From contig NZ_JAENII010000002.1 in assembly GCF_016595525.1 (NCBI RefSeq), positions 434,001-498,000 of the forward strand: a DNA stretch of 64,000 bases, written 5' to 3'. The translations under genes and the position numbers were made by a program. This document shows positions 61,292-64,000 of the stretch, piece by piece. The DNA is from Haloferula rosea. Its GTDB lineage: Bacteria > Verrucomicrobiota > Verrucomicrobiia > Verrucomicrobiales > Akkermansiaceae. Under the pieces are notes generated by a model. That model ran no database searches, was not told where the DNA came from, and was given only the letters and a program-made list of their open reading frames with translations. Position 1 is the first letter of the stretch; each line of letters starts with the position of its first letter.

Positions 61292-61537
61292 GGAGTGCGG
61301 GCGGATACTTGGCGGGGATGGCGATCTTTCGCAAGTCTCGATCCACGAATGCGGGAGAGGGTGCCGCCAGCGACGTCGACAGGGCGGATTTGGCCTGAAA
61401 TTTCTGTCACAATCCGCTCGCCGGTGGGCAATCTCTTACAGCATGGATCGAGATTTTCGGGGAAACGGTCAAAAAAGTTCCAAGGATTTCGGCTGTTCCG
61501 TGTCGTTAGAATAGTAACGCGATGTATTCCGCCCGCC

Positions 61538-62098
61538 ATGAAACCTGCTCCAGCCGCCAGTGATGTCGGCGAGGTGCTGCCCTTCGGCCCGATGAATCAG
61601 GAGAAACCGACGCTCCGTGAGATCTTCGAGACCGAGGAAAGCCCACTTTTGCGCTTTGCCTATGGGATTCTCGGGCGGCGTGAGGTGGCCGAGGATCTGG
61701 TGCAGGAAGCATTTCTCCGGCTTCACGCGAACTGGGGGGAAGTGAGGAACCCGAAGGCCTGGCTCTATCGTTCGGTGCGGAACCTGGCGCTCAACCATCT
61801 GCGGGATCACAAGAAGGAGTGCGCCACCGAGGAAAGCCAGGAATGGGCGGTGGAGAAGGGGCCAAGAGAGGCGTTGGCGCGCATGGAGGCGGCGGGTGCG
61901 GTGCAGATGCTGGTGGCCGAATTGCCGGAGAAAGAGGCCGCACTCATCCATCTGAAATATCACGAGGGACTGCGCTATGAGCAGATCAGCGAACGCACGG
62001 GCCTGTCGGTCGGGAACGTAGGCTACAAGCTCCATCATCTTTTGAAGGGCCTTTCCGCATCCTTGCGGCGGATGGGAGTGGACAGCGCCGAGGGCTAG
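61538..62098 (+). CDS. ECF-type RNA polymerase sigma factor
   Basis: 186 residues from ATG 61538. Region 2 covers about 35-100 (LLRFAYGILGRREVAEDLVQ and the segment RNPKAWLYRSVRNLALNHLR). Region 4 covers about 130-180 (LPEKEAALIHLKYHEGLRYE and ISERTGLSVGNVGYKLHHLL). It lies 22 bases before a gene with an anti-sigma-like head, its likely partner. The 246-base gap to the divergent tatC should hold the sigma promoter. A TAGAAT at 61507 is a weak -10 candidate. Confidence 0.93.
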   Translation: MKPAPAASDVGEVLPFGPMNQEKPTLREIFETEESPLLRFAYGILGRREVAEDLVQEAFLRLHANWGEVRNPKAWLYRSVRNLALNHLRDHKKECATEESQEWAVEKGPREALARMEAAGAVQMLVAELPEKEAALIHLKYHEGLRYEQISERTGLSVGNVGYKLHHLLKGLSASLRRMGVDSAEG

Positions 62099-62120
62099 AG
62101 AAACCAGCGACACCAATGCC

Positions 62121-64000
62121 ATGAAAAACGATTCAGACCAACCACTCACGTCCGTGGAAGACGACGCTTTCGAGGCCCGGCTCGTGGCCTGGGTGCTCGG
62201 GGAAGCTTCCGCATTCGAGCAGGCGGAGCTGGAGACACTCTACCGCAGTGACCGGGAAGTCGCACTCTTCGTGGATCGCCTGCGGTTGCTCGATGGACTG
62301 ATCAAGGAGGAAGGGGAGGAGGTTTGGAGGCTTTCGGATGAAAGGAGAGCGAAAGTTCTGGCCTTGATGGGCGACAAACCTCCGGTGGTGGTCCGTCGTA
62401 TCAACCGTCAGTGGTGGAGCGTGGCGGCGGCAGCCGTGGTGATGGTCGTCGCAATCGGTGGAGCCCTGTCCACGATGGGGGTGAGACGCAGTGTGAAGAG
62501 TGAGAAGTCGGCTCCGGTCATCGTCAGTTACTCAGCACCTGCCGCGTCTCCCTCGGCGGCATCGGCCGATTCGCGGGAGTTTGCATTTCTTTCGGAGTAT
62601 GAGCCGCCGGAACTTCCGAATGGCCTCGCGAACGCGTCACATGCGATCGACGAAGAAGTTCAAGAACGGGCGCTCGCAGTCAATGAGTCCAATCGTAAGC
62701 TTCCCAATGCGATTGGCGGTGGGTTTCCGGTCACCCCGGCCACACCCACCGACTTCGATGCCGACGCGTGGGGTGGGTCGACCAGTCGGTCCGGGGCCGA
62801 CGAGCTGGGTCTGGAGCAGTTGGCCGATTCAGCACAGAGCGCTGAGTCTCAGGGTGAGGTGATCGCAGGTCACCTTGGAGATCGGAATTCGGTGCTTCGG
62901 AGTGAGATTCCGGCCAAGCTTTCCTCGAGCATGGCGAAGGTGATTGGGAGCAACTCGGCATCCCCCGCCGAGATCCCGGTTCCCGAGACCACCGTCCCAG
63001 ACCCGTCCACCTCCTTTGGAGATGGCGATGACTTCGGCGTTGGCTGGGGAGGCGCGATTGGTGGCGGTAGCGGCGGTGGTGGTTTCACCGGGCATATTGA
63101 ACCGACCGAACCGAGTGGCGTTCCAACAGTCGGTGATCTTCCTGGCGTGGGCAGTCTTTTTCAACGTGCGGGGGAGGTTGCTGATTCACCAGAGGAGCCG
63201 ACTTCCGATCCTTTCGCGGCTGCACCACCAAGGCTTGAGGCTCCCGTCGAAGAAGAGTCATTTGGTCGCTCGGTTGTGGATGCGAAGGAGCGAACTTCGG
63301 GCGCGGTTGCAGGAGGTGCAAAGGCGGAGGCTCAGAACATCGACGCGATCGGGGGCAACGATGGGAATGGTTTTGGCGGGATCGATGGGTCAGCCGTGGT
63401 GACAGGGGGAATGAATCGGGATCTCAGTGCATTGGAGGGCCGACCTGCTGGATCCACAGGAGACGGGCTTGAGAATCGCCATCGCTTTGGAATGGATATC
63501 GATGGTCGCGTGTCGGGGTGGGATAGCCGGAGCAAGCAGTCCGGCTTGCCGAACGAAGCGCTTGCGGAGCGTGAGGCATTGCAGCGGCAAGATGGGCTTT
63601 CCGAGTCTGATCGCCTGCTTCGGGAAGCTCGGAATAGCTATTCGGAAGGGGAGTATGATGAGGCCCTTGATCTTTATGCTGAGGGATTGGAGCGACTCCC
63701 GGATACTCCGGCTGCGGAGAGCCGACGCCTGTTCTTCAATGATTCGCTCGCTGATGCGGAGATCGCGGTGGCTGAGGAAGCAATTCGTGTCGGCCAGTAT
63801 GACAAGGCGAAGGACCTGCTGAAAGACGCTGCCGGAAGAGCTTCCGATTCGCGGCTGGCCGAGCAGAAATTGGAGGATCTCACGGACCCGATCCGGACTT
63901 CGCCCGCGCTTAGCGAGGAGCACAACCGCAAGGTCGATGACGTTCGCCGGGGTCTCTATCAGGGTGAAGGTCACTACAACCTCGGTCAGTATGACGAGGC
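62121..64000 (+). CDS. Anti-sigma-like, TM and TPR protein (partial, runs off the window)
   Basis: The frame from ATG 62121 is open for 626 codons to the end of the window. Residues 1-85 look like the helical head of PVC anti-sigma proteins (RLVAWVLGEASAFEQAELE), followed by one TM helix at about 98-119 (SVAAAAVVMVVAIGGAL). A long Gly/Ser/Pro-rich low-complexity stretch (about 130-470) leads to TPR-like repeats from about 490 (ARNSYSEGEYDEALDLYAEG, then VGQYDKAKDLLKDA). The TPR segment resembles the N-terminus of verrucomicrobial secretin-like (GspD/PilQ) proteins, so a secretin domain may follow beyond 64000; this is inference. Confidence 0.8.
   Translation, partial: MKNDSDQPLTSVEDDAFEARLVAWVLGEASAFEQAELETLYRSDREVALFVDRLRLLDGLIKEEGEEVWRLSDERRAKVLALMGDKPPVVVRRINRQWWSVAAAAVVMVVAIGGALSTMGVRRSVKSEKSAPVIVSYSAPAASPSAASADSREFAFLSEYEPPELPNGLANASHAIDEEVQERALAVNESNRKLPNAIGGGFPVTPATPTDFDADAWGGSTSRSGADELGLEQLADSAQSAESQGEVIAGHLGDRNSVLRSEIPAKLSSSMAKVIGSNSASPAEIPVPETTVPDPSTSFGDGDDFGVGWGGAIGGGSGGGGFTGHIEPTEPSGVPTVGDLPGVGSLFQRAGEVADSPEEPTSDPFAAAPPRLEAPVEEESFGRSVVDAKERTSGAVAGGAKAEAQNIDAIGGNDGNGFGGIDGSAVVTGGMNRDLSALEGRPAGSTGDGLENRHRFGMDIDGRVSGWDSRSKQSGLPNEALAEREALQRQDGLSESDRLLREARNSYSEGEYDEALDLYAEGLERLPDTPAAESRRLFFNDSLADAEIAVAEEAIRVGQYDKAKDLLKDAAGRASDSRLAEQKLEDLTDPIRTSPALSEEHNRKVDDVRRGLYQGEGHYNLGQYDE

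Follow-up and report, generated by a model that had tools for sequence, protein, structure and literature searches.

The membrane-bound class I anti-sigma factors RseA, MucA, RsiW and RslA, partners of extracytoplasmic function (ECF) sigma factors, have an N-terminal helical anti-sigma fold and one transmembrane (TM) helix and are encoded directly behind the sigma gene; excerpts of PMC7406223 describe class I anti-sigma domains as a three-helix bundle plus a fourth helix, with or without zinc. In cell-surface signalling of the FecR/PupR type, an inner-membrane anti-sigma factor has a periplasmic N domain of the secretin/TonB type (PMC7186176, in part), and contact between the anti-sigma N domain and the transducer governs proteolysis (PMC7186176 and PMC11637429, in part). 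Two further protein families are relevant: the Amuc_1098 family secretins, represented by PilQ of Akkermansia, which sections of PMC4960237 describe as abundant and located in the outer membrane, and the YfbK-type von Willebrand factor A (VWA) proteins with the domains PF12450, PF00092 and PF12034. At the end of a 64,000-nucleotide stretch of the Haloferula rosea genome (the window; G000:C22:434001-498000) lies a locus that resembles each of these in part: an ECF sigma gene is followed by a gene for one chain with an anti-sigma-like head, a TM helix, an outward mosaic and a VWA module, and then by a gene for a giant membrane protein.

The window protein shares fold, topology and gene position with RseA, MucA, RsiW and RslA; unlike these, it carries a 1,250-residue mosaic plus VWA on the outside, and family profiles do not clearly recognise its head. 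It has the block of tetratricopeptide repeats (TPR), N0 and N1 of the Amuc_1098 family secretin plus a piece resembling the barrel start, but no secretin channel, and these parts are carried by an anti-sigma protein. As in YfbK-type proteins, all three domains score above their cut-offs and the metal-ion-dependent adhesion site (MIDAS) is intact, but here they are fused to an anti-sigma domain and to a hypervariable stretch between TM helix and VWA, which we call the bay. By analogy, the closest known mechanism would be cell-surface signalling; the likeness to FecR/PupR is in outline, as there is no FecR domain (E up to 1) and no TonB-dependent transducer gene in the unit, which is not a member of that class. 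Our best explanation, to which we give a probability of about 55%, is an envelope-signalling sigma unit of the Planctomycetes-Verrucomicrobia-Chlamydiae (PVC) bacteria whose sensor recurrently takes up copies of domains from envelope machines of its host as bait or docking modules. Searches of the open-licence PMC literature found no paper on this unit or on repeated lineage-specific insertion of envelope domains into the sensor of a sigma system, and the available portions of PMC8103513 and PMC4960237 contain no description of an anti-sigma/VWA fusion or of secretin pieces outside secretins.

The sigma factor, the anti-sigma/VWA protein and the membrane protein of about 2,300 residues are a three-gene unit kept in Verrucomicrobiota and Planctomycetota relatives. 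A contig scan identified 80 loci in Verrucomicrobiota, Planctomycetota, Lentisphaerota and Kiritimatiellota, not an unbiased sample since the scan patterns were drawn partly from bay sequence; adding the locus of the window makes 81. Of the 67 loci for which upstream DNA was available, 66 have the sigma gene immediately before the anti-sigma/VWA gene, and of the 76 with downstream DNA, 75 have the giant gene immediately after it; the two misses are a broken VWA frame overlapping the sigma gene (L119) and a contig end (L115). Because the gene order recurs to this extent, the observation is not due to chance. Among 141 genomes surveyed in the order, 31 had a match to the VWA core of more than 400 bits.

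An earlier note, made from the letters of the window, had proposed an ECF sigma gene followed by one chain with an anti-sigma-like head, a TM helix, a Gly/Ser/Pro-rich linker and TPRs, perhaps leading to a secretin, and as a whole this interpretation is partly supported. The gene order and the composition of the chain were borne out. The sigma open reading frame (ORF) matches Sigma70_r2 (56.5 bits, cut-off 24), Sigma70_r4_2 (41.7 bits, cut-off 25.7) and TIGR02937 (80 bits, cut-off 42.9). The second frame, read as open to the end of the window, indeed does not stop soon after position 64000 but closes only at 1,375 codons, about 2.2 kb beyond the window (L009:6122-10249; stop codon L009:10247-10249).

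The anti-sigma-like head (residues 1-95) stood up in predicted fold, but sequence profiles by themselves did not clearly recognise it: NF052375 reaches 20.6 bits (cut-off 100), 60 aligned heads searched against NCBIfam and Pfam gave only scattered weak matches, a few heads matching anti-sigma families weakly and with no clear family, and a profile search of PDB sequences with the heads gave no match. A structure model was therefore needed. The AlphaFold model built on the 60 aligned heads has four helices, with a predicted local distance difference test score (pLDDT) of 93-97 over residues 21-60. With Foldseek, the ten best matches among 350,542 PDB chains were all anti-sigma/sigma complexes (MucA, ChrR, RslA), at individually weak E-values of 0.6 and up; with VIA-align 2, the first seven of nine rows were anti-sigma chains (RslA with Z 6.0, MucA, RsiW, ChrR, RseA), at modest Z scores of at most 6.0. 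As the names of these matches agree, and together with gene order and topology, the predicted fold supports assigning the modelled head to the class I anti-sigma domains, and similarity to sigma-binding proteins is thus present at this level. A zinc anti-sigma domain was rejected: the head consensus has no Hx3Cx2C motif (the motif as named in part of PMC7406223).

The suggestion of a secretin held for one half of that protein only. The TPR part is the periplasmic N-domain block of a pilus secretin, but the DNA past the window, where a Secretin domain (PF00263) had been considered, encodes none, and the chain ends in a YfbK-type VWA module instead. In the full chain, PF00263 reaches 12.1 bits (cut-off 27.5) over only 33 residues and is not present, and the four PF00263 matches in the genome all lie away from this locus; an anti-sigma factor fused to a complete secretin was rejected on these grounds. 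NF042912 (Amuc_1098 family type IV pilus outer membrane protein) matches with 465.9 bits (E 2.3e-139) in three stretches, the best being residues 478-849; this is below the whole-protein cut-off of 750, as expected, because the secretin half is missing. A hidden Markov model (HMM) of 25 secretins gives 410 + 59 bits for TPR-N0 (residues 474-850) and N1 (856-929), and residues 479-940 are 52% identical to the secretin of the same genome at C8. Searched by itself, the window part gives weak TPR matches that stay under the cut-off (TPR_14, 20.6 bits); the full chain has a match that exceeds it (TPR_2, 31.9 bits, cut-off 27). The piece from near the barrel start matches the same HMM with 32 bits (E 1e-8); the closest secretins are 31-38% identical and the genome's own two rank 10 and 11 of 25. 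The stalk module has matches in the same genome at C55, C67 and C1 (66%, 54% and 48% identity). At the C-terminus, vWF_A (residues 941-1019), VWA (1036-1199) and YfbK_C (1217-1272) score 44.2, 55.7 and 78.6 bits, all over the Pfam cut-offs, and the five MIDAS positions (D1042, S1044, S1046, T1110, D1140) are all invariant in 83 of 83 VWA domains.

While head and VWA are conserved across relatives, the bay is a hypervariable mosaic. From 123 VWA-bearing ORFs, partial and repeat-locus rows (those below L051 except L009) and four identical proteins were removed, leaving 87; L108 and L126, with at most 60 residues before the VWA, were dropped, leaving 85 bays, some of which end at contig ends (upstream DNA is lacking in 14 of the 81 loci). 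The proteins of L054, L055 and L059 have VWA domains that are 97% and heads that are 91-93% identical, while their bays, of 490, 798 and 1,041 residues, are 44-48% identical; the versions L061 and L063 are 98% identical in the VWA and 58% identical in the bay. The latter two, with a near-identical core and differing bays, are carried by one metagenome-assembled genome (MAG), C1_MAG_00076, and represent either two strains or two copies. An assembly artefact is unlikely as the origin of the mosaic, which is also found in named strains (L056, L082, L086, L117, L123) and in the single-contig genomes G100 and G120.

Many bays contain pieces of envelope proteins. PilQ pieces are present in 46 of 85 bays, in none of 425 shuffled bays and in one (a 20-bit match) of 789 control ORFs, which are mechanical ORFs of at least 250 amino acids (aa) from the same loci, many of them not genes. 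Pieces of a Wzc-type kinase, whose source protein has Wzz, GNVR (below cut-off) and AAA_31 domains, are found in 13 of 85 bays and in neither controls nor shuffles. All 18 Wzc pieces fall within profile positions 54-413, before the AAA domain, and none is from the kinase end; judging from the sequence, this region is probably the periplasmic part between the two TM helices. The stalk module is present in 15 of 85 bays, and 48 of 85 have at least one of PilQ, Wzc and stalk. An NCBIfam scan of ten bays added Verru_Chthon cassette protein A (L075, L079), chain-length determinant proteins (L061) and autotransporter repeats (L061, L080, L101, L110); those in L080, L101 and L110 are beta repeats of the autotransporter type (PATR), in bays of Opitutia-type and other verrucomicrobial MAGs. 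That all bays are built from genes of their own genome was rejected, as the genome that carries the planctomycete L094 bay contains no source for it, and the remaining 37 of 85 bays have no match to PilQ, Wzc or stalk.

Several pieces are closest to a gene of the same genome. Ten VWA proteins from genomes whose own secretin was available supplied 20 pieces, which were ranked against 25 secretins. The own-genome secretin comes first for 9 of the 20, in some cases far ahead, with identities of 77% versus 58% for others in G132, 75% versus 58% in G140 and 79% versus at most 62% in G114. Own-genome searches found pieces 66% identical to Wzc and 73% identical to PilQ in G114, two PilQ pieces in swapped order (73-74%) in G100, PilQ and stalk pieces in G120, PilQ and Wzc in G142, Wzc in G143, and no source pieces in the planctomycete G141. 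In a tree of eight captured TPR pieces and 26 secretin TPR blocks, eight changes are needed, at least six of them forced by well-supported branches; the captured pieces of G132, G140 and G142 are sister to the secretin of the same genome (bootstrap 99-100), and a single clade of captured pieces is rejected (approximately unbiased (AU) test, p 1.1e-46). Gene conversion after an older capture would look alike, so this result means repeated capture or repeated overwriting. A possible but somewhat improbable origin, which would fit either function of the bay, is that fusion took place only once or a few times long ago and that ectopic gene conversion by pilQ and wzc has since kept the copies similar. 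Circular permutation with matching ends occurs in eight bays, in Wzc pieces of L052, L060, L061 and L063 and in PilQ TPR pieces of L056, L059, L134 and L135, and the latter four, with varying closeness to the own secretin, share a similar permuted order (about 110-160 to 255, then about 33 to 142), which would fit an old fusion. Close relatives, however, differ in pieces, orders and sources, and the AU test speaks against one clade, although conversion would yield that too.

The captured pieces are under constraint. Compared with their own source, the ratio of non-synonymous to synonymous substitutions (dN/dS) is 0.06-0.31 in 15 of 16 pairs, the sixteenth having a saturated dS; these ratios are rough, as most pairs have a dS to the source that is close to saturation. 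Between relatives, most shared captured pieces have a dN/dS of 0.17-0.37 (0.68 in one recent pair) and the VWA 0.04-0.10. In the L061-L063 gene pair, dS is 1.45 for the Wzc piece and 0.28 for the VWA core, which points to recombination in the bay. The low ratios bear on the idea that the bay is neutral filler, a spacer with no sequence-specific role that collects chance duplications of exported sequence while cytosolic or toxic inserts are purged. Loose bay length (whole proteins have 679-1,821 aa at loci with upstream DNA, the shortest being cut by a contig end), the many bays with no recognisable pieces and a richness in low-complexity sequence, which probably makes the bay prone to recombination, would suit such a spacer. 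Selection at the ratios given does not, nor does the repeated use of two machines, in whole domains with matching ends, when only one of 789 neighbouring ORFs is alike, and we regard neutral filler as unlikely.

In the mechanism that we favour, the captured copies would work as bait or as modules for docking. The ECF sigma factor would be kept at the inner membrane by the anti-sigma domain of the second protein. At the outward end, the metal-site VWA probably binds a protein in the periplasm, for which the giant of about 2,300 residues encoded by the third gene is the simplest candidate. The bay between TM helix and VWA would be an input bay, into which the lineage repeatedly inserts, and in which it updates, copies of the periplasmic domains of its own trans-envelope machines: the type IV pilus secretin PilQ, the Wzc-type capsule kinase and the TM-stalk proteins. 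Whatever binds or attacks the real machine would then most likely also bind the copy; the change could be relayed via VWA and TM helix, the anti-sigma factor cleaved or opened, and the sigma factor set free to act on its own operon first. The borrowed piece may thereby name the input of the sensor and offer a genetic handle on what such sensors detect.

A sharper version of the same proposal, minus attack, is a sensor of assembly or occupancy, with captured PilQ and Wzc domains docking on the normal partners of these machines and reporting pilus or capsule assembly, comparable to the pairing of STN-type domains of cell-surface signalling anti-sigma factors with the STN domains of transducers; pieces would track the version of the host as the partner interface co-evolves. 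N0/N1 is the secretin relative of STN (PF07660 reaches 19 bits, under its cut-off of 28.4, inside the secretin N0 region of the window protein), and the periplasmic part of the anti-sigma factor PupR has an STN subdomain, with both of its subdomains needed for transducer binding (PMC7186176, in part). The copies being closest to PilQ of the same genome, and the domain-sized pieces with matching ends, also suit a docking surface. For the monitoring of a housekeeping machine it is odd that near-identical relatives differ widely in bay content, and fragments, permuted orders and several unrelated sources fit poorly; we hold this version to be rather unlikely. If docking is what the pieces do, a large and little-studied group of bacteria would have a sigma system wired to its pilus and capsule machines.

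The other narrowing of the proposal draws on plant NLR immune receptors (nucleotide-binding, leucine-rich repeat) with integrated decoy domains, which according to parts of PMC10195085, PMC9528084 and PMC4759852 combine a conserved signalling core with a variable slot of host-protein copies. By this analogy, the bay might be a rapidly reshuffled slot with copies of the host's attack targets (pilus secretin and capsule kinase), and the sigma response would fire when phages, predators or rivals hit the copy. There is no homology to NLR receptors and no attacker is known here, and we consider an immune-type sensor of this kind improbable. If the copies do act as bait, bacteria and plant immune receptors would share an evolutionary solution.

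Besides the roughness of the substitution ratios, several observations weigh against recurrent uptake of bait or docking modules. The 37 bays with none of PilQ, Wzc or stalk include all 14 planctomycete bays, which means that the core function does not depend on borrowed parts, and some captured pieces are short (25-50 residues). For the three pieces of the window protein itself, the best ranks of the own secretins are only 10, 2 and 3 of 25, and its place in the tree of captured TPR pieces and secretins is not resolved. In the fetched DNA, the promoter-like block found upstream of the sigma gene (Table 1) precedes no pilQ or wzc gene and so provides no link between the sigma factor and these genes.

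Table 1. Features of the sigma/anti-sigma locus within the window (window positions; residues are those of the anti-sigma/VWA protein)
Feature	Position	Strand	Details
Promoter-like block CCAAGG-N16-GTC	61480..61504	+	58 nt 5' of sigma start; candidate self-regulated ECF promoter
ECF sigma gene	61538..62098	+	186 aa; ATG 61538, stop at 62098
Anti-sigma/TM/mosaic/VWA protein	62121..64000	+	ATG 62121; 626 codons within window, remainder beyond
Predicted class I anti-sigma domain, cytoplasmic	62154..62369	+	Residues 12-83, four helices; AlphaFold model, Foldseek and VIA-align 2
TM helix	62421..62477	+	Residues 101-119; hydropathy scan; sole TM helix of the chain
Piece like PilQ/Amuc_1098 secretin near barrel start	62484..62765	+	Residues 122-215 (profile 611-692); HMM of 25 secretins
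Stalk module	62907..63089	+	Residues 263-323; stalk HMM 68 bits; after a TM helix in other proteins of the same genome
Secretin-derived TPR-N0-N1 block	63540..64000	+	Residues 474-929 (474-626 inside window); NF042912 and secretin HMM

The form CCAAG-N14-20-GTC of the promoter-like block is present in 22 of 67 sigma upstream regions, compared with a mean of 1.9 (maximum 7) in shuffles and a mean of 2.9 (maximum 9) in random windows of the same loci. In most cases its spacing is fixed and it lies 48-82 nt from the sigma start; the fixed-spacing form is the one in the window. Judged from sequence and position, it may be an ECF promoter through which the unit regulates itself. Its use for finding targets of the sigma factor was rejected, as the other occurrences in the window and in the fetched loci look random.

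The third gene of the window locus is an ORF of 2,321 codons with a GTG start (L009:10299-17264), just outside the window; it is followed by an ORF on the opposite strand, which we take to be argH-like. The giant protein (2,321 aa) has TM helices in its middle part and at its C-terminus and no Pfam match, so that a conserved membrane protein of about 2,300 residues comes to light that Pfam does not cover. Across 51 relatives, mean column identity is 53% over the 976 residues that precede its final TM helix. A model of residues 1315-2290 is confident but loosely packed (pLDDT 86.6, predicted template modelling score (pTM) 0.41) and consists of large beta domains resembling the N-terminal domain of M1 aminopeptidases and ribophorin I/Ost1; no enzyme domain was seen in this half. 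The C-terminal half seems to match an earlier part of the protein itself in BLAST, and the giant may be an internal duplication of beta-saddle domains.

Some further loci carry related parts. The Haloferula rosea genome has a second, simpler pair of ECF sigma factor and YfbK-type VWA protein (L167:1988-4689; G000:C44), in which the spacer is short and secretin pieces were not seen. In G114 (L216:2944-5313), G143 (L240) and G142 (L237), a BlaI-type repressor and an M56 peptidase are encoded close to a lipoprotein-like ORF of 329-351 aa that has a PilQ-like segment (secretin profile about 516-590); this is a second type of envelope regulator that includes part of a secretin. In the Haloferula rosea genome, four ORFs of about 280 aa look exported and match residues 651-820 of its own pilus secretin with 42-50% identity (G000:C5:111976-113045, C44:136495-136824, C44:154438-154767; loci L205, L206, L208, L209). 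Finally, three proteins of the same genome (L164:462-1958, L165:820-1890 and L166:970-2082) share an N-terminal TM-stalk (V-[IL]-V-S-Y, then a Gly-rich tail), and their C-termini differ: a toroid resembling squalene-hopene cyclase in L164 and a VWA domain in L165 and, by its look, in L166.

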